Shown here one piece after another: positions 2 through 32,109 of a stretch of DNA of 64,000 nt. The stretch's first letter is position 1; the number at the start of each line of letters is the position of its first letter. Position numbers and translations under genes: made by a program. The notes beneath the pieces are model-generated. The model worked only from the letters and a program-made list of their open reading frames with translations. It was not told the DNA's origin and searched no databases. Source of the stretch: Thraustochytrium sp. TN22 (lineage: Eukaryota; Sar; Bigyra; Thraustochytrida; Thraustochytriidae); contig JABLUY010000163.1 of NCBI GenBank assembly GCA_013306675.1, positions 25,459 to 89,458 on the forward strand. The letters run 5' to 3'.

Positions 2-1324
2 CTGCAGCAAGTGCCCCAGGGCAACACGGACCACCTCCGCGTTCGCGTCGCGCCGCAGAGCGCGTGCGGGGGCCAGCTGTCGCCAGACGAGTCCCACGAG
101 GCGCACTCGGGGCAAGACGAGCCTTCCAGCTCGGCGACGGGCTTTGCGGGCGAGCGCGCCGAGTTTCTGGGCTACACGGTGCGCAACCAGTGGGTCGCGA
201 CCGTGCTGTTCCTGATCTTGTTCGCCTCGCTGCTGGTGGTCTTTGCGGCCATCTTCCAGGCGCTGGAGGGCGCGGCGGAGCGGGAGCGCAACGAAGGCTT
301 CGTAGCGCTCATGGCAAGCATCAAGATGCAGGTGCCGCCGGACCAGTACGCCGAGCTGGTCGCGTACGTGGGCGTGGACGACGTGCGCGGCACGGAGAAC
401 TTCGTCTCGTACGACGAGGCGACTGGCTCTTGGGAGACCTTTACGTCGCACTCGTTTTCGTCGGCCTTTTATTTCGCCTTTATGCTGGCGACCACCATCG
501 GCTACGGCGACATCGTGACGGAGACCGAGGGCGGCAAGCTGCTGACGTGCCTGGCGGTCCTGACGATGCTGCCGATCGCCATTGTGACATACACTCGCGT
601 GGCGGACGTGATTTCCAATGCGGTGATGCAGCTGGCGCTCAAGCAGAGCCACGAGTTCCAGGCGGTCATGCGCAAGTACGACCAGGACAACTCAGGCACC
701 TTGGACGCGGATGAGCTCGTGCATGCGTTCAGGGACTTGGGGCTGCACCTGCGGCCGGACGAGGTCGTGGATATCATCCGCGAGTACGACACGAACGGCG
801 ATGAGATGCTGGACGTCGCGGAGTTCGCGAGCGCAGCAGCGCGACTCAACGTGTCGGTGGGCGAGCTGGGCCGGCAGATGTTCAAGCTGCGCTTTTCGCT
901 GGCTTGCCTCACGCTCTTCACCATTGCCTTTTGCTGCATTGTTTCCTTTAGCCTGGAGACTGGCGCGGTGGACACAATCTACTTCACGGTGGTGACCATG
1001 ACGACTGTGGGTCTAGGCGACATCACGCCTTACGCCGCCAATGCTCGCGCGGGCCTGACGATACCGATCTTCGTGCAGCTTGGCCTTGTGGCCTTGGTTG
1101 TGGACGCCGCGACCTCGCGACTCCGAGCAGCTTCGGAGGCGCCATCGCCTGCATCGCACCCCGCGCATCAGCACGGCTCCACCAAGAAGGTCGTGCGCCA
1201 GCCGGAGACGGCGTCGCCGGACGGCACGGCGTCGACCTCGTCCTCGTCCTCCTCGTCCTCCTCGTCCTCGTCCTCGACTTCCCCTCCCGCAGCTGTAGCG
1301 CTTGGGTCAGGGCACGACAGCTGA
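2..1324 (+). CDS. Two-pore-domain K+ channel with EF-hands between the two pores (5' partial)
   Basis: Probable Ca2+-sensing potassium channel of the tandem-pore (TPK/K2P) type. Counting residues from the GTG at 11, the first membrane helix is about 60-83, pore filter 1 (TIGYGD) about 162-167 and helix 2 about 175-197. Two EF-hand loops follow at about 224-235 (DQDNSGTLDADE, canonical) and 260-271 (DTNGDEMLDVAE, Gly6 replaced by Glu). Helix 3 is about 295-315, filter 2 (TVGLGD) about 332-337 and helix 4 about 346-367. A Ser-rich tail encoded by a TCC/TCG repeat ends the protein. The frame is open to the left edge and its first ATG lies beyond helix 1, so the true start is outside the window. 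In plant TPK channels the EF-hands are C-terminal; here they link the two halves. Channel identity is secure from both filters. Subcellular membrane and ion selectivity are inferred. Confidence 0.9.
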   Translation: MQQVPQGNTDHLRVRVAPQSACGGQLSPDESHEAHSGQDEPSSSATGFAGERAEFLGYTVRNQWVATVLFLILFASLLVVFAAIFQALEGAAERERNEGFVALMASIKMQVPPDQYAELVAYVGVDDVRGTENFVSYDEATGSWETFTSHSFSSAFYFAFMLATTIGYGDIVTETEGGKLLTCLAVLTMLPIAIVTYTRVADVISNAVMQLALKQSHEFQAVMRKYDQDNSGTLDADELVHAFRDLGLHLRPDEVVDIIREYDTNGDEMLDVAEFASAAARLNVSVGELGRQMFKLRFSLACLTLFTIAFCCIVSFSLETGAVDTIYFTVVTMTTVGLGDITPYAANARAGLTIPIFVQLGLVALVVDAATSRLRAASEAPSPASHPAHQHGSTKKVVRQPETASPDGTASTSSSSSSSSSSSSSTSPPAAVALGSGHDS

Positions 1325-2008: not shown

Positions 2009-2715
2009 CGCCTCGCTCGCCGCGTCGCCGCCGCGCTCTGCCGCGCCCGCTCTGCCGCGCCGCGCCGCGCCGCGCCGCGCCCGCGCCGCGCGCCGCCACC
2101 GCCGCCCGGCGCACGCCCGGCGCACCCCTGGCGCACCCCTGGCGCACCCCCACCCGGGCGCACCCGGGCGCACCGGTGGCCGCGCAGGCCGTGACTAGTC
2201 ACGAGATACGAGCGCCAGCCAGCCAGCCGCGGCCAGTCATCATCAGAAGATGTCTCGGAGCGAATCAGTGCTCTCGCTCGGCTGCCGGTGGTGACGCCTC
2301 GGGTCCGAGGCGGCGGCCCAGAGGCGGGCACCGGGCACTGCAGAGCTTGGCAGTTTAGCTTCACTTTTTTCATTGCTGGCAGGCACTGGCAGCGCCAGAC
2401 TGCCAGTGGTGGCAGCGGTGGGCGCGTGGAAGCGCGGCGTCATCGTCGGCGCCGCCAACTGCCATCACCAGTGGCAGCAGCGCCTGGCGCAGGCGGCGAG
2501 GCAGAGGCGGCAGACTGCCAGACCCGGAGCGAGCGCTCTCGCTGGCGAGGCGAGGCGCGAGGCGAGGCGAGGCGAGGCGCGAGGCGAGGCGGCCCGTGCA
2601 GGCCGGCTTGAGTGAGGCGGCGAGGCGGAGCAGCGAGCAGCGCAGAGCAGCGCAGCGCAGCGCAGAGCAGCGCGGCGAGCAGCGCAGCGAGGAGCGGGCC
2701 TGCGAGCGGGGGACC
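2009..2715. promoter_or_regulatory. Divergent promoter region between the basic protein and EF-3
   Basis: About 700 bp between two divergent start codons. It holds short tandem GGCGCACCCCT-like repeats near 2110-2150. It has copies of the recurrent intergenic motif at 2384-2391 (CACTGGCA) and 2401-2408 (TGCCAGTG), with a related ACCAGTGGCA at 2468. Next to EF-3 lies a GCGAG/GCAGC pentamer array. Two divergent transcription units are inferred; no TATA box is evident. Confidence 0.45.
2544..2700 (+). repeat. GCGAG / GCAGC pentamer array in the EF-3 5' region
   Basis: Pentamer-periodic sequence, first GCGAG then GCAGC units, ends 15 bp before the EF-3 ATG. The purine-rich strand is the coding strand. 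Similar arrays precede several other genes in the window. Confidence 0.8.
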
Positions 2716-5700
2716 ATGGGCAAGAAGAAGGCGACGGGCGGCAAGGCGGAGGCGGCGCCGAGGTGCCCCGTGGATGGGTGCAAGAACAGGCTGCAGGGCG
2801 ACAAGCTGGCCAAGTGCGAGTCGTGCGGCATGGCGGTCTGCACGCTGCACAAGTACCCGAATGACCACACGTGCAAGTCCGCGGCGCCGGTGGCGCCCAA
2901 GAGCAGCGGCGGGCTGACGGTGGTGGGCAACAAGAACAAGAAGAGCGAGAAGGCGACGGAGGAGGAGAAGCGCAAGGCGGAGGCGCGCGAAGAGGCGCTG
3001 CTGAGCGAACTGGTGGCGACGAGCAGCGCCGACCTGCTGGCCGAGCTCATGTCGTTTGGCGCGGCGTCGGCGCGGTACGAGTCGTCCGTGGCGGTGCAGG
3101 CGCTCTCCTCGGAGTCCAAGCCGATCCAGAAGGCGCTGAGCGGCGCCGTGGGCCAGGGCCTGGTGGAGACGGCGCAGAGCGAGGGCAAGCTGGAGAAGCT
3201 GGCGGCCGCGCTGGCCGCGCACCTGCGCGAGGTGGCCGGCAAGAGCAAGCTGAGCAGCTCGGAGGAGCAGCGCGCCGTGGGCGTGGCGTCGCTGTACGGG
3301 CTGGTGCTGGGCGGGGGCGATGGCTCGCTGGCGGGCTCGGACGAGGCGCTGCAGCTGGGCCTCGAGGGCTCGCGCGCCGCGCACGAGAAGGTGGCCAAGG
3401 CGTGCGCGGGCGAGGTGCTCAAGCGCGCCGCCGCGGCGCGCTGGTCCGAGGGCCGTGACTTCGAGGCCGGGTGCTGGCCCGTGCTGGGCGGCCTGGTGGA
3501 CGAGGTGCTGGGCCTGCCGGAGGACGCGGATGCGCTGCGCAACGGGCTGTCGCAGGCCGTGGCGGCCATCGCGGGCGGCTGCGGCGAGCAGGCGGCGGGC
3601 GAGCCGCTCATGAGCGGCAAGCTGGCGCCGCTGCTGGATGCGCCCAAGGACACGGCGGCGGTGCTGAGCTGCATGCGCGTCGTGACGGCGCTGTGCAAGG
3701 AGTGGGGCACGGGCATCTTGCCGTACGCCATGCCGGTGGACTTCATGCCCAAGGCGCTCTTTGATGTGTACGACAACTCGGCGGCGAACGGGCGCAGCGC
3801 GACCAAGAAGGCGATCCTGCAGCTGGTGGACAAGATGGGCCCGCGCGGCGTGCGCCTGTGCGTGCCGGTCTTCATGGAGGGCCTGGAGCACGCGTCCTGG
3901 CGCGTCAAGGCCATGTCGCTGCAGTGCCTGGGCGCGCTGGGCAAGCGCAAGGTGTCGCAGCTGTACCGCGACCTGCCGATCCTCATCCCGGCCGTCATGG
4001 AGTGCGCGCGCGACACCAAGAAGCAGGTGAGCGACGCCGCGTGCGACGCCCTCGACGCGCTCGGCGAGCTGGTGAGCAACGCGGAGACCATCAAGCTGCT
4101 CAAGTGGCTGCTGGACGCGCTAAAGGACCCGGAGCAGGTGGACCCGTGCCTGGACGAGCTCATGGACACGACGTTCGTTAACTCGATCGACGCGCAGTCG
4201 CTGGCCTTTATCATCCCGGTGGTGCTGCGCGGCCTGCGTGAGGGCAACGCGGACGTCAAGCTCAAGGCGTCCATCACGGCCGGCAATGTGTGCTCGCTGG
4301 TGGCGGACGTGCATGACATGCGGCCGTACTACACGCTGCTCCTGCCGGAGCTCAAGAAGCTGCAGGACCACTCGCGGCCGCGCGTGCGCGAGATGGCGCT
4401 GCGCGCCAAGCAATCGCTGCAGGAGGACCTGAGCATGACGCGGCGCCGCAGCTCGCAGAGCAGCGGGCGCGCCGCGAGCGGCGGCGCCTCGGCGGCCGCG
4501 GCCGCGGCCGTGGCGGCCGTGGGCGTGGGCGGCTCGGGCCTGGACCCGTCGGACGCCGCGCAGGACGCGCAGGCCGGCGAGGTGCTGGCCAGCAAGCTGC
4601 GCGAGCTGGGCCTCGAGGAGGTTCTGGGCGCCGTGGCCTTTGAGTACGTGACGGCGACCTGCCGCATGATCATGTTCGACCTGCTGGAGGACGTGGACCA
4701 GGACCTGCCGCGCTCGCTGGCCACCAAGCTGGCGCGCGCCCAGGTGGACGAGGGCGTCTCTCCGTTCCTGGGCAAGCGCAGCGAGCGCCGCGACGAGCTG
4801 CTGGAGGGCGCCACGTCGGCCGTGGTGGACGCGCTCTGGGTCGCCCAGGGCAAGGCGGCGCACGAGGACGGCGACGGCGCCGACGGCGAGAAGGACTACA
4901 TCGTGTACATCCCGAGCATTATCCTGGCGTTTGCGTCGCGCGTCCTGCTCAAGCGCGCCGGCCTCTTTTTGGAGCGCGGCCACCGCTACTCGGTGGTGGG
5001 TCTGAACGGCACGGGCAAGTCCACGCTGCTGACGCGCGTGGCGGCGCGCGACATTGACGGCTTCCCGGACGACATCACTGTTTACTTTGTGGAGCACGAG
5101 ATCGTTGATGACGAGCAGCAGCTCAGCGTGCTGGACTACATGCAGCGCGACATCCAGGAGTCGGTGTCCAGCAAGAAGAGCAAGAAGATCAAGGGCGGCA
5201 AGAAGATTGAGGAGATTTACGATCTGAGCATGGAGCACCTGCTGGAGGTTCTCAAGGAGGTCGGCTTTACCGAGCAGCTGCAGCAGCAGCGCGTGTCGGC
5301 GCTCTCCGGTGGCTGGAAGATGCGCCTGGCCATCGCCCGCTCGATGCTGTACATGCCGGACCTCCTGCTGCTGGATGAGCCCACCAACCACCTGGACGCC
5401 GCGGCCCTGGACTGGCTGCAAAAGTACCTGGCCGGCCTCAAGGACACGACCATCGTCCTGGTCTCGCATGACTACGACTTTGTTGACTACGTGGCGACCG
5501 ACATCATCCACCTGGCGGACCAAAAGCTGCAGTACTACCCGTTCGGCTTCTCGCGCTTCCAGCAGGAGCGGCCCGAGATCGTGGCGGCGCTGCCCAAGAA
5601 GGACGATAACAACAAGGACAAGGCTGGCGCCGGCGCGGAGAACGGCGACGCGCCACAGGCGCTCTCGGCCATCGAGCTCATGGCCAAGGCCGCCACGGAC

Positions 5701-6717
5701 GAGAACGCCGCGGCGCTCACGGCCGGCATCAAGCCGATTCGCTTCCCGGAGGGCTCCAAGCTTGAGGGCGTCACCCACCGCGGCAAGCCGATCGTGTCCA
5801 TGGACAAGGTCACCTTTGGCTATCCGGGCACCAACAAGATGATCTTCCACGACGTGAGCATCAAGCTCACGCTCAACAGCCGCGTGGCCATCCTCGGCGC
5901 CAACGGCGCCGGCAAGAGCACGCTGCTCAAGCTGCTGGTCGGCGAGCTCCAGCTCGACGAGAACGAGGGCCACTCGGGCAAGTTCTGGAAGCATCACAAC
6001 CTGCGCACCGCTTACATCAGCCAGCACTCGCTGCACCACCTCGAGGGCCATCTCGAGGCCACGCCGTGCCAGTACATTCAGGACCGCTTCTTCGAGGGCC
6101 GCGACAAGGAGGCCTCCAAGATGATCACCGTCAAGCTCACCGCCGAGGACAAGGAGGCAATGGAGCAGTCCGGCGAGATCTCCGAGATCATCTCGCGCGT
6201 CGTGCGCTCCAAGAAGCTCTACTACGAGGTGCGCAAGAACGGCCGCGCCGAGAAGGGGATGAACCGCGACATGCGTTCGCTCGAGGAGCTCGAGCGCATG
6301 AGCAAGGACAAGCCCCACGTCATGAAGCTCGTTCGCCTCTTTGATGAGCAACTCAAGTTCGCTGCCTCCGGCGCCGATCTCCGCCCCGTTACCACGCCCG
6401 AGTTCATCAAGCACCTCGCCGAGTTCGGCATTGACTCCGAAATCGCCCAGCGCAAGGTGCGCTGGATGTCCGGCGGTCAGCGCGCCCGCCTTGTGCTTGC
6501 CGCCGCCATGTGGACTTGCCCCCACATGATCATTCTCGACGAGCCCACCAACTATCTCGACCAAGACACTGTTGCTGCGCTTACCTACGCGCTCAAGACC
6601 TTTCGCGGTTCCGTCGTCCTCATTTCGCATCACGCCGGCTTCGTCGACGCCGTTGCCAACGAGCTCTGGCACCTCAAGGACGGCATCGTCCGTGTCGAGT
6701 CGCTCAAGGGCAAGTGA
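2716..6717 (+). CDS. Elongation factor 3 (EF-3) with N-terminal AN1-type zinc finger
   Basis: Ribosome-associated ABC-F ATPase that, in fungi, helps release E-site tRNA during elongation. The 1333-residue product starts at ATG 2716 (GGGACCATGG context). Residues 17-53 form a C-x4-C-x11-C-x2-C-x4-C-x2-H-x5-H-x-C finger, matching the AN1 spacing of ZFAND2 proteins. HEAT-like repeats follow. ABC domain 1 has Walker A GLNGTGKST (about 763), signature LSGGW and Walker B LLLLDEPTNHLD. ABC domain 2 has Walker A GANGAGKST (about 1061), an insertion of the chromodomain-like type typical of EF-3, signature MSGGQ (about 1250) and Walker B MIILDEPTNYLD. Fungal EF-3 is about 1040 residues, so the extra length is N-terminal. 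EF-3 also occurs in oomycetes and several algae. All ATPase motifs are intact, so it is probably active. The role of the zinc finger is unknown; binding to ribosome-linked ubiquitin or partner proteins is only a guess. Confidence 0.95.
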   Translation: MGKKKATGGKAEAAPRCPVDGCKNRLQGDKLAKCESCGMAVCTLHKYPNDHTCKSAAPVAPKSSGGLTVVGNKNKKSEKATEEEKRKAEAREEALLSELVATSSADLLAELMSFGAASARYESSVAVQALSSESKPIQKALSGAVGQGLVETAQSEGKLEKLAAALAAHLREVAGKSKLSSSEEQRAVGVASLYGLVLGGGDGSLAGSDEALQLGLEGSRAAHEKVAKACAGEVLKRAAAARWSEGRDFEAGCWPVLGGLVDEVLGLPEDADALRNGLSQAVAAIAGGCGEQAAGEPLMSGKLAPLLDAPKDTAAVLSCMRVVTALCKEWGTGILPYAMPVDFMPKALFDVYDNSAANGRSATKKAILQLVDKMGPRGVRLCVPVFMEGLEHASWRVKAMSLQCLGALGKRKVSQLYRDLPILIPAVMECARDTKKQVSDAACDALDALGELVSNAETIKLLKWLLDALKDPEQVDPCLDELMDTTFVNSIDAQSLAFIIPVVLRGLREGNADVKLKASITAGNVCSLVADVHDMRPYYTLLLPELKKLQDHSRPRVREMALRAKQSLQEDLSMTRRRSSQSSGRAASGGASAAAAAAVAAVGVGGSGLDPSDAAQDAQAGEVLASKLRELGLEEVLGAVAFEYVTATCRMIMFDLLEDVDQDLPRSLATKLARAQVDEGVSPFLGKRSERRDELLEGATSAVVDALWVAQGKAAHEDGDGADGEKDYIVYIPSIILAFASRVLLKRAGLFLERGHRYSVVGLNGTGKSTLLTRVAARDIDGFPDDITVYFVEHEIVDDEQQLSVLDYMQRDIQESVSSKKSKKIKGGKKIEEIYDLSMEHLLEVLKEVGFTEQLQQQRVSALSGGWKMRLAIARSMLYMPDLLLLDEPTNHLDAAALDWLQKYLAGLKDTTIVLVSHDYDFVDYVATDIIHLADQKLQYYPFGFSRFQQERPEIVAALPKKDDNNKDKAGAGAENGDAPQALSAIELMAKAATDENAAALTAGIKPIRFPEGSKLEGVTHRGKPIVSMDKVTFGYPGTNKMIFHDVSIKLTLNSRVAILGANGAGKSTLLKLLVGELQLDENEGHSGKFWKHHNLRTAYISQHSLHHLEGHLEATPCQYIQDRFFEGRDKEASKMITVKLTAEDKEAMEQSGEISEIISRVVRSKKLYYEVRKNGRAEKGMNRDMRSLEELERMSKDKPHVMKLVRLFDEQLKFAASGADLRPVTTPEFIKHLAEFGIDSEIAQRKVRWMSGGQRARLVLAAAMWTCPHMIILDEPTNYLDQDTVAALTYALKTFRGSVVLISHHAGFVDAVANELWHLKDGIVRVESLKGK

Positions 6718-18712: not shown

Positions 18713-18738
18713 CGAAGCAGCCAGCTGCCAGGTCCTCG

Positions 18739-21617
<2,879 letters not shown>

Positions 21618-28551: not shown

Positions 28552-31500
28552 TCAACTTGGCGCGTCCGTCTGCTGCTGATGCATGCGCAGAGCGGGCGGC
28601 GCGAGCCTGTCGATGGCGCCCATGAACCAGCGTGCCGGAGTCAGTCCTCCGGCCCCGCTGCCGGCGCCGCCCCTGGAACCCTGAGCGGGCTCTTCGGTCG
28701 TTGGAGTGGTTGTTGCGCTGGCCGCCTCGGCCTGGCTGTGTGCTGTCGACCTCGGGGTCAAGACGACCCCGGCGTCGACGGGAGACGCGTCGCAAGTCTC
28801 CTCCTCGTCGGACGCCTTGGGGTCCTTGGTGTACGTGGTGACGGACGGGCGTCGAGGCGTGGATGCGGCAGACTTGACGCCGCTGGATGCCCTGTGCGGG
28901 CTCGTGGACAGCCTGAGCGGACTGCCAGGCCTGCGCGGACTGGTCCGCTTGCGAGGAGATCCGGCGGTTCGCGGACTCCCAGCATGCGAGGGCGAACCAA
29001 CCATGCCGCCACGCACAGGCTTGATGACTCGTGGCTTGACCTCGATGAGCGCCGGAATAGAGCTGTCAGACGCCAACGAGACGGCGTCCTCATCGGCAGC
29101 CTCGATGCGATCGAAGGCGAGCTTGTAGCCAGCGAGCTCGGCGTTGAGACGGTCGAGCTGCGATTGGTAGTCCTCGACGTGGGACTTGAAGGTGGACTGG
29201 TAGTCGTGGAGCGCGGCCTCGAGGAAGCTGATCTGCGCGCCGCGGTTGTCAAGCTTGAGCTGCCACATGATCTCGTTCTCACGTGCAATCTCCAGCTGCG
29301 CGGACTGCGTGCGCAGGCGCGCGCTAAGTTGGCGGTTGTGCTCGCGCTCGGACCGCAGCGTGTCGGTGAGCTCGCGCAGATCCTTGTTGTCCGTGGCGGA
29401 AAGCAGCTCCTGCGCCTCGATGTGCTCCAGGCGTAGCTGGATGTACTTCTCGGTGATGTGCATGAGATCGCTCTTGAGCAGCGCTTCCTGCTGTGACAAA
29501 TGCACAGGCAGATCCTGCAGGCTCAGGGAGCGCCGACGGCCGTCGCGGCCCTTGTCCTTCTTCTGCTTCTTCTTCTGCTTCTGTTGCTTGCTCTTGCTGC
29601 CCTCGGCGGTCGGCGACATGACCGAACCCGCGTCGCTGGCCAGGTCAAGGCTCCGAGTCGACAGACTCTGGCGGCGCGAGCCGGCGGCCTTGGATGGCGA
29701 CGACTTTGCGCTCGCCAAACCGTCGTCGTCGTCGCCGCCGCCGCCTCCGTCCTCCCCTGCGTTTTCAGCCTGTGCCCTGGACCGCATGCGGACCTGCGGA
29801 AACGGACCGTCCTCTTCGCCGCAGCCAAGATGCTGCTTGAGCACGTTGTTCTCTTCCTGGAGCCCACGCAAGGTGAGCTTGGTCTCGAGCTCCTTGTACT
29901 CGGCCTGCTGCTGGAAGAGCTGTAGGTGGGCGACACGCTGGATGAGATCGGCCTGGGCCTTGGATGAGGCGACCAGGTCCTCCTCGAGCTGCAGGTTACG
30001 CGCGCGCTCGCCCTCGAGCGCCTCGTTGGCCACCTCCGCCTCGGCCCGGGCCTCGTCCAGCTGGGCGCGCAGAGCGTCCACCTTTTCCAGTGCCTTGGTC
30101 AGTGCTTCCTCGGCGCGGACCAGCACGGCGCTGTTCTCGCGCGACGCGCGGCGCGCGGCACGGGCCTTACGCAGGCGAGCGGCGCGCTCGCTATCCTCAT
30201 TGTCACCCCCCTCGCCGAGGCCGGCGTCATGCTCGGTGTCCGACGCCTTGCGTGGCGACGAGTCCTTGCCCTCTTCCGTGACGCGGTCTTCCTCCTCGTC
30301 ATCCTGCTCCGCCGGGCTGGTCCGCTCAATGACAACGTTGTGGGCGGCCGGCCCGTCCATCGCGGGCTCCTTGGGCGGCATCGAGGGCCTGGCGGCGACC
30401 GGAGTGGGCGCCGCAGGCAGGACGGCATCCCCGTCAATCGAAGTGCTGGCGCGGCGACGGTGGTGGTCCTGGTCCTCGTACTCTTCGTCGTCGTCGCCGT
30501 CGTTTTCCTCGCCATCCAACCCCTCGTCGATGGCGGCGGTGGTGTCGATGGAGGGTGCCTCAGGCCGACTGCGGCGCTCGTTGTCCTGCTCGTGATGGTG
30601 CCTGAGCTCGCGCTGGAGCGCGGAAGTGGAGATGGTGTAGTTGCCATTGGACTTGAGCTCCCGGACCGGGGACTCCTCCGTGTCGATGCCGAGGTCGCTC
30701 TCGAGCGAGCGCGTGTAATGCACGAGCATGCGGAGCGACTCGCGCGTCTGAGCAACCATTGCCTTGTACTCTGCGACGGAGAACTCCTGGTTGACCTTGG
30801 GCTTGTTCTTGATGCGCTTGGCGCGCGTGCCGAAGCGCAGCGTGGACAGCGTCTCGGCGGCATTGTACGAGAAGCCGGAGCACGTAATGATGAGCGAAGT
30901 CTTGGAGTTGCCGCCGAGGGAGTCCTGCAGGCAGCGCGTGAGCTTGCTGTCTCGGTACGGCACGTGCTTGGCGCCCTCGACGAGCGCCTTGATGACGTTG
31001 CCAAGCGCCGACAGCGAGCGATTGATGGTCTTGGCCTCCTCCAGGACGCCGTCCGTGGCGCCGGTCTTCTTGACCATCTCGCTGCCGGCGAGATCGACCA
31101 AAATCAGCTTGCCTGTCCTGCTGAGCGCCGTGCGCGTCTGGCGCTGCGACACCGTGATCATGAAGACCGAGTGGCTGCGACTCGAGTCCTGGTTCATGCG
31201 CGTCGACGCGATGGCGCGGCTCGCGTTGCCCTTGGCGGCCACCTTGAGAAGCTCCTTGGCTGAGCCCACGTAGACCTCCTCCGCGCCCTCCAGCTGCACG
31301 CCGCGGCCCTTGACGTCTCGCACGCGCAAGTTCTGGTTGCGCGCGCTCGGGTTGAGTAGGTCGCGGATACGCTCCATGTAAATCTCCACAAAGGACACCT
31401 TGACCATGAACTCCGTGTCGGCCGCGGCTGATCCCATGGCGCGGAAGACATCCTCCGCGATGCGCGGCACCACGCCGCGCAGGTCCGCGGCGCCCGCCTC

Positions 31501-32109
31501 GCCCACCTTGCCGCCTTCGGGCCCCATCATCGTGTGCGTCTTGCCGGACCCGGTCTGCCCGTACGCGAAGATCGTGCAGTTGTAGCCTGCCAGCACATCC
31601 GCCACCAGCGGCTTGGCGCAGTACCCATACACCTCATCCTGCGCCGAGTGCTCCGAGAAGACGCGGTCGAAGGTGAACTTGGTCTCCTCCTTGCCAGGCT
31701 CCATGCCGTCCAGCGTCACCGAGGCCCCATCCTCGCCCAGGTCCACGCACTGCGTGGCGCCCTGCCGCCGCTCCACGCTGTTCGCCGGCCGGAACCTGCA
31801 GCACACGCGCACGTTCGTCGATGAGCCGGCCGCGCTGGGCAGCGTCGATCCGCCCGCCGAGAGCGGCGCCGTCATGGCCGACTTGGACGAGGTCCCCGAC
31901 GCCGACGAAAGCCGCTTGGCCTCCACGGCGCCCGCGGACGCGCTGCTACTGCGCGTGCCGCGCGCCGCCTCCTCGCGCACTGTTGTCTCCTGCGCCGTGC
32001 TCGCGCGCTCCCGCTGTGGCTCCTCTTCGGAAGGTCGCGGCGGTGGCGACCCGGGCGGCGGCAACGGGCTCTGGCCCCCGCCCGCGCCGTCCGTGCCGCC
32101 CTCCTTCAT
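28552..32109 (-). CDS. N-terminal-motor kinesin, kinesin-1-like
   Basis: Plus-end-directed microtubule motor with long coiled-coil stalk, 1185 residues from ATG 32109. A Ser/Pro/Glu-rich extension of about 100 residues precedes the motor (NVRVCCRFRP). P-loop AYGQTGSGKTHTM is near residue 180; switch I contains NQDSSRSH, switch II DLAGSE. The motor ends DSLGGNSKTSLIITCS and FGTRAKRIKNK, typical of kinesin-1. Predicted coiled coils and acidic linkers follow, then a Ser/Pro/Arg tail rich in SPR motifs, candidate phosphorylation sites. The segment at 30320-30393 recurs at 18727-18802. The motor is complete and should be active. Cargo and exact subfamily are not shown by the sequence; a kinesin-1 assignment rests on motor-domain resemblance. 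Confidence 0.93.
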   Translation of the reverse strand: MKEGGTDGAGGGQSPLPPPGSPPPRPSEEEPQRERASTAQETTVREEAARGTRSSSASAGAVEAKRLSSASGTSSKSAMTAPLSAGGSTLPSAAGSSTNVRVCCRFRPANSVERRQGATQCVDLGEDGASVTLDGMEPGKEETKFTFDRVFSEHSAQDEVYGYCAKPLVADVLAGYNCTIFAYGQTGSGKTHTMMGPEGGKVGEAGAADLRGVVPRIAEDVFRAMGSAAADTEFMVKVSFVEIYMERIRDLLNPSARNQNLRVRDVKGRGVQLEGAEEVYVGSAKELLKVAAKGNASRAIASTRMNQDSSRSHSVFMITVSQRQTRTALSRTGKLILVDLAGSEMVKKTGATDGVLEEAKTINRSLSALGNVIKALVEGAKHVPYRDSKLTRCLQDSLGGNSKTSLIITCSGFSYNAAETLSTLRFGTRAKRIKNKPKVNQEFSVAEYKAMVAQTRESLRMLVHYTRSLESDLGIDTEESPVRELKSNGNYTISTSALQRELRHHHEQDNERRSRPEAPSIDTTAAIDEGLDGEENDGDDDEEYEDQDHHRRRASTSIDGDAVLPAAPTPVAARPSMPPKEPAMDGPAAHNVVIERTSPAEQDDEEEDRVTEEGKDSSPRKASDTEHDAGLGEGGDNEDSERAARLRKARAARRASRENSAVLVRAEEALTKALEKVDALRAQLDEARAEAEVANEALEGERARNLQLEEDLVASSKAQADLIQRVAHLQLFQQQAEYKELETKLTLRGLQEENNVLKQHLGCGEEDGPFPQVRMRSRAQAENAGEDGGGGGDDDDGLASAKSSPSKAAGSRRQSLSTRSLDLASDAGSVMSPTAEGSKSKQQKQKKKQKKDKGRDGRRRSLSLQDLPVHLSQQEALLKSDLMHITEKYIQLRLEHIEAQELLSATDNKDLRELTDTLRSEREHNRQLSARLRTQSAQLEIARENEIMWQLKLDNRGAQISFLEAALHDYQSTFKSHVEDYQSQLDRLNAELAGYKLAFDRIEAADEDAVSLASDSSIPALIEVKPRVIKPVRGGMVGSPSHAGSPRTAGSPRKRTSPRRPGSPLRLSTSPHRASSGVKSAASTPRRPSVTTYTKDPKASDEEETCDASPVDAGVVLTPRSTAHSQAEAASATTTPTTEEPAQGSRGGAGSGAGGLTPARWFMGAIDRLAPPALRMHQQQTDAPS

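Follow-up and report, generated by a model that had tools for sequence, protein, structure and literature searches.

The AN1 finger and its reading frame

The 64,000-nucleotide stretch of Thraustochytrium sp. TN22 DNA analysed here (contig JABLUY010000163.1, positions 25,459 to 89,458; hereafter the window) carries, close to its start, an uninterrupted open reading frame (ORF) whose deduced product begins with an AN1 zinc finger and continues into a HEAT domain and two ABC cassettes like those of the translation ATPase eEF3 (Table 1). A Pfam scan placed the HEAT and ABC domains in the same frame as the finger, with HEAT_EF3_N (86.7 bits, cut-off 32) and HEAT_EF3_GNC1 (71.7 bits, cut-off 27) ahead of the cassettes; ABC_tran matched two stretches, and both cassettes keep the Walker A, signature, Walker B and H-loop patterns. 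These results bear out the original prediction, which had placed the finger and the HEAT region in one frame and had described all ABC motifs as intact. Judged from the sequence, the fusion of an AN1 finger to an eEF3-family ATPase is real.

The finger presents the eight C6H2 ligands in AN1 order (C17, C22, C34, C37, C42, H45, H51 and C53) and is complete, as had been claimed. Pfam zf-AN1 (cut-off 27.9) recognizes it with 32.5 bits when the first 95 residues are scanned alone, with 33.7 bits in a scan of the genome, and with 27.3 bits, just below the cut-off, in a scan of the whole protein. Across all six frames of the window, just one stretch fits an AN1 spacing pattern. Translated in six frames, the 37.9 Mb genome gave only three AN1 matches, this one included, so that a chance origin of the finger is unlikely. 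Of the other two matches, one lies in a protein that combines AAA_12 with R3H and one in an A20/AN1 protein; none of the three was found in a ZFAND1-, ZFAND2- or Cuz1-type protein, in a search that ignores introns and that split domains could escape.

The best sequence match of the finger in the PDB is 1x4v (E 5e-4), which we take to be ZFAND2B. The proposed spacing as in ZFAND2 is only approximate, because the alignment with 1x4v requires two gaps in the C22–C34 loop. The finger shares the C6H2 ligands with ZFAND2A and ZFAND2B (AIRAP and AIRAP-L), ZFAND1 and Cuz1, but differs from these proteins in being fused to an ATPase, with no second finger, ubiquitin-like (UBL) domain or known p97 motif seen in the protein. 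The LDFLP (or RDFLP) motif that follows the first Cys pair in ZFAND2 and Cuz1 is absent, the loop being KNRLQGDKLAK, and simple VIM, SHP and UIM-like patterns found no p97- or ubiquitin-binding motif in the protein. Most AN1 domains have a Phe before the fifth Cys (PMC5035049), whereas Val41 precedes it here and leaves no aromatic residue at this place. In these respects the finger is divergent.

The start codon lies in a good context (ACCATGG), in agreement with the original prediction; the nearest in-frame stop before it is at 2356, and a scan of positions 2251–2715 found no ATG start. Third-position GC is 0.978 over residues 1–92 and 0.90–0.98 along the whole frame. With a codon table built from residues 276–1333 and from the other eEF3 of this genome (see below), the per-codon score of residues 1–92 is +0.56 bits in their own frame and lies between −0.17 and −3.08 bits in each of the other five, a composition that supports translation from the first ATG. 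GC-rich DNA does yield long wrong-strand ORFs here (649 and 884 residues opposite the gene), so we considered that the upstream frame might be open by chance and that the true start might be M112, or another Met downstream, leaving the finger outside the mature protein. Given the zf-AN1 match above its cut-off, the codon bias of residues 1–92, the context of the first ATG with no ATG start upstream, and the position of M112 in GAGCTCATGT, we regard this as very improbable.

Table 1. Features of the AN1–eEF3-type gene, in window coordinates (pLDDT, predicted local distance difference test)
Feature	Position	Strand	Evidence
Stretch from the previous in-frame stop to the ATG, without any ATG	2357..2715	+	sequence scan
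Whole ORF, 1333 residues: AN1 finger, eEF3-type HEAT, two ABC cassettes	2716..6717	+	ORF list, domain scan, codon composition
AN1 zinc finger, residues 17–56 (ligand core 2764–2874)	2764..2883	+	Pfam zf-AN1 32.5 bits on first 95 residues; C6H2 ligands
Basic low-confidence linker, residues 54–92, net charge +4	2875..2991	+	sequence; pLDDT mostly under 60 in 580-residue model
Helical extension N-terminal to the yeast eEF3 start point, residues 135–250	3118..3465	+	five predicted helices, pLDDT about 61–83 from residue 141 on
eEF3-type HEAT domain, residues 250–577	3463..4446	+	
ABC1 cassette, about residues 735–955	4918..5580	+	alignment to yeast eEF3; motifs
Lysine-rich 18-residue ABC1 insert, residues 819–836	5170..5223	+	alignment; not in C283, L030 or yeast eEF3
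ABC2 cassette, about residues 1005–1327	5728..6696	+	domain scan, alignment; motifs
Divergent chromodomain region within ABC2, about residues 1120–1225	6073..6390	+	alignment to yeast eEF3 and L030

Two eEF3-family genes and their relatives

Three genes of the genome score above the cut-off of HEAT_EF3_N: the window gene, a Gcn1-like gene on contig C312, and a gene on contig C283. The C283 product (1061 residues) aligns with yeast eEF3A over residues 5–1043 with 743 bits, and has a Pfam Chromo domain, a lysine-rich C-terminal tail and no AN1 domain, so that of the two eEF3-family genes only the window copy carries the finger. The window protein matches yeast eEF3A with 421 bits, in three pieces. 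The earlier identification as EF-3 is thus right as to the family, although the organism's standard EF-3 is the canonical, finger-less protein of C283. In that canonical protein (L014:1776-4961), the Walker A of ABC1 reads AAKSAGKT, compared with GPNGCGKS in yeast, so that the motif has lost its first Gly. For EF-1alpha, a single genome match exceeded the cut-off, at C385.

In a seven-row tree of ABC cores, built without New1, C283 paired with yeast eEF3 (100/99), L030 with the window protein (98/96), and the eEF3 group stood apart from other ABC-F proteins (100/99). One of six own-genome ABC candidates (L021–L026) entered the tree; three were excluded because a single DEPTN motif was recognized in them and one because none was, and L026 was left out. 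In the ABC part, the window protein is 51% identical to L030 and 36% to C283. Because the tree joins C283 to yeast and the window protein to L030, the genome has a yeast-branch eEF3 and an eEF3L-type paralogue; on these comparisons the window gene, rather than being the standard EF-3 of the organism, codes for a second paralogue that has diverged.

L030 (IMGVR_UViG_3300050343_000299) is a 1240-residue relative encoded on a 54.5 kb record filed as viral. The first 8.5 kb of this contig contain the eEF3L gene together with those for an mRNA capping enzyme, a queuine tRNA-ribosyltransferase and a PfkB kinase; because of these neighbours we take it as a piece of a eukaryotic chromosome, and would guess a green alga as its source. 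The check named in the original prediction, for routine AN1 domains in EF-3 of related lineages, covered this one relative: there is no AN1 domain in the 54.5 kb record, although the L030 ORF begins at its first base and a finger might therefore lie upstream of the sequenced part.

Relatives were sought in three non-eukaryotic collections, of phages, viral contigs and prokaryote contigs. A tblastn search of the phage collection matched 190 records, and the 20 listed all match in the ABC part only. With one protein as query, the scan of viral contigs produced 20 pattern matches, none of them a relative, and two alignment scans (A1 and A4) gave relatives in 155 of 193 and 146 of 174 stretches, respectively; among the best 80 relatives kept of each list, one contig, the same in both (L030, L114), also matched in the HEAT part. 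Scans of prokaryote genome contigs yielded 185 pattern matches and no relatives in the first instance, and 51 pattern matches with four relatives in the second, all four being bacterial records that match in the ABC part.

Proteins called eEF3L are known from heterokonts, haptophytes, green algae and others, and a C-terminal extension is described as common among them (PMC6723617). The window protein resembles them in its HEAT domain, its two ABC cassettes and probably its chromodomain region, and in grouping with L030 and not with yeast eEF3 or C283, but it has an N-terminal AN1 finger and lacks an eEF3-like C-terminal extension. Its membership of the published eEF3L clade is inferred from comparison with L030 alone, itself assigned by inference. 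From eEF3 proper (yeast eEF3A and C283), with which it has in common the HEAT/ABC order and the HEAT fold, it differs in its separate branch, its finger, a longer N-terminus, the ABC1 insert and the lack of a basic C-terminal tail. Yeast New1 also has an N-terminal addition, in its case a Q/N-rich prion-like region instead of a zinc finger. Gcn1 has an eEF3-like HEAT region, and the organism's own Gcn1 is 33% identical to the HEAT domain of the window protein over 253 positions, but Gcn1 has no ABC cassettes and is encoded by the separate gene on C312. In the open-licence literature of PubMed Central we found no relevant report in which AN1 is linked to eEF3 or to elongation factor 3: the main text of PMC6723617, its tables apart, contains neither AN1 nor zinc finger, and where the terms occur in PMC7409359 and PMC4108028 they occur separately. 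Within that literature, a canonical eEF3 accompanied by an eEF3L-type ATPase with an AN1 tip appears not to have been reported in print.

Possible work on the ribosome

Both eEF3 and New1 span the 40S head and the 60S central protuberance of the ribosome, with the HEAT domain on the 40S head (PMC7957392, PMC7145556). The reading that we favour, and consider somewhat probable, is that the product of the window gene is a ribosomal ABC-F ATPase of eEF3L type, the second eEF3-family member of this genome, with its AN1 finger on a basic, probably flexible arm, ribosome binding being predicted from homology. This reading builds on the fusion ORF, the ATPase motifs, the branch apart from yeast eEF3 and the existence of a separate canonical eEF3. 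Because of its HEAT fold and its cassettes, with a caution on contact residues given below, the protein would likely bind at the eEF3/New1 site, bridging the 40S head to the 60S central protuberance; by the same homology, it may use ATP to act at the E-site side in some subset of ribosomal states, and leave the bulk of elongation work to the C283 eEF3. The finger would project from the 40S-head side on the basic arm and, since eEF3 places the N-terminal end of its HEAT domain on the 40S head, might serve there as an auxiliary docking module. Most economically, it would grip rRNA or a ribosomal protein, replacing lost HEAT lysines; alternatively, it would recruit a partner. Our guess is that rRNA or a ribosomal protein is a more economical partner than the proteasome or Cdc48 machinery of the bolder proposal discussed below. 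The window protein stops at ABC2 without the basic C-terminal tail into which C283 and L030 extend, and this loss suggests that eEF1A is not bound in the manner of eEF3.

Several observations weigh against this reading. Of 16 reported yeast ribosome-contact residues, the window protein keeps five as identical and C283 keeps ten, so that the binding site of the window protein may differ. Since L030 also keeps five of the 16, this low conservation is a feature of the branch and is not tied to the finger; L030, the nearest relative here, in addition retains a basic C-terminal tail. A single-sequence structure prediction of residues 1–85 reached a mean pLDDT of 62.9, too weak to confirm an AN1 fold, and the model had no fold match with VIA-align among 8 chains and four with Foldseek, every one with an E above 5; in the 580-residue model, residues 1–80 have a pLDDT under 50.

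A plainer account is that the window protein is a second elongation factor 3, redundant with C283, whose finger is a functionless passenger. It fits with the intact ATPase motifs, with a finger divergent at V41 and with the precedent of New1, the prion-like N-terminal region of which is likewise confined to some yeasts (PMC6723617, PMC7145556). We consider it unlikely, however, as all eight zinc ligands are retained and the two proteins lie on separate branches and differ in tails and inserts, which argues that they do different work. The original prediction had instead proposed a coupling of the ATPase, through the finger and by way of ubiquitin, p97 or the proteasome, to quality control on the ribosome; the factor would then tie the clearing of stalled ribosomes to protein quality control. 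This coupling, drawn from the name of the domain alone, is possible and unsupported: the finger lacks LDFLP, the simple p97 and ubiquitin patterns were unmatched, and Cuz1 binds Cdc48 through its UBL domain, its AN1 domain being necessary but not sufficient for proteasome binding (PMC5035049). We thus give it little credence.

Bolder still, and to us just as doubtful as that coupling, would be an eEF3L-type ATPase dedicated to stalled ribosomes, in which the longer solenoid and the AN1 finger reach the 40S head or a neighbouring collided ribosome and recruit the ubiquitin-proteasome machinery; if true, it would join E-site clearing and protein quality control in one polypeptide. Gcn1 reaches across collided ribosomes (PMC8040806), and the one hint of a comparable reach of the window protein is a structural match no better than background; the sequence does not back such a reach, and the helical extension has no sequence similarity to the genome's own Gcn1.

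Proteins of the eEF3 family vary in their N-terminal additions, such as the prion-like region of New1, and the roles of these additions are little understood. Through an AN1 finger at its front end, an ATPase that works on the ribosome may acquire a new partner for docking. The presence in one organism of eEF3 proper and of a zinc-finger eEF3L-type copy allows the division of work between them to be tested directly. It also offers a way to ask whether an AN1 domain can steer a translation ATPase, be it towards ribosomes or towards the degradation machinery.

Other features of the protein and the window

Together, residues 1–92 have a net charge of +9. The lysine-rich insert of ABC1 falls between the Walker A and signature motifs, presumably near the position of the Arm of other ABC-F proteins; eEF3-type proteins are not known to have an Arm. 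The chromodomain region is 26% identical to that of yeast eEF3 (90 positions) and 43% to that of L030 (95 positions); Pfam Chromo, found in C283, is not among the 25 of 42 families listed for the window protein.

Just upstream of the gene, at 311–1324 (+), lies an ion channel with EF hands, in which two stretches match Ion_trans_2. Further along, an 86-base element occurs twice in inverted orientation (18730–18815, +; 30305–30390, −) with 88% identity, and only these two places scored in a DNA search of the whole genome. One copy opens a frame with a KQAS tetrapeptide repeat (18739–21081), and the other is inside a kinesin-like frame, named by eye, at 28552–32109 (−).
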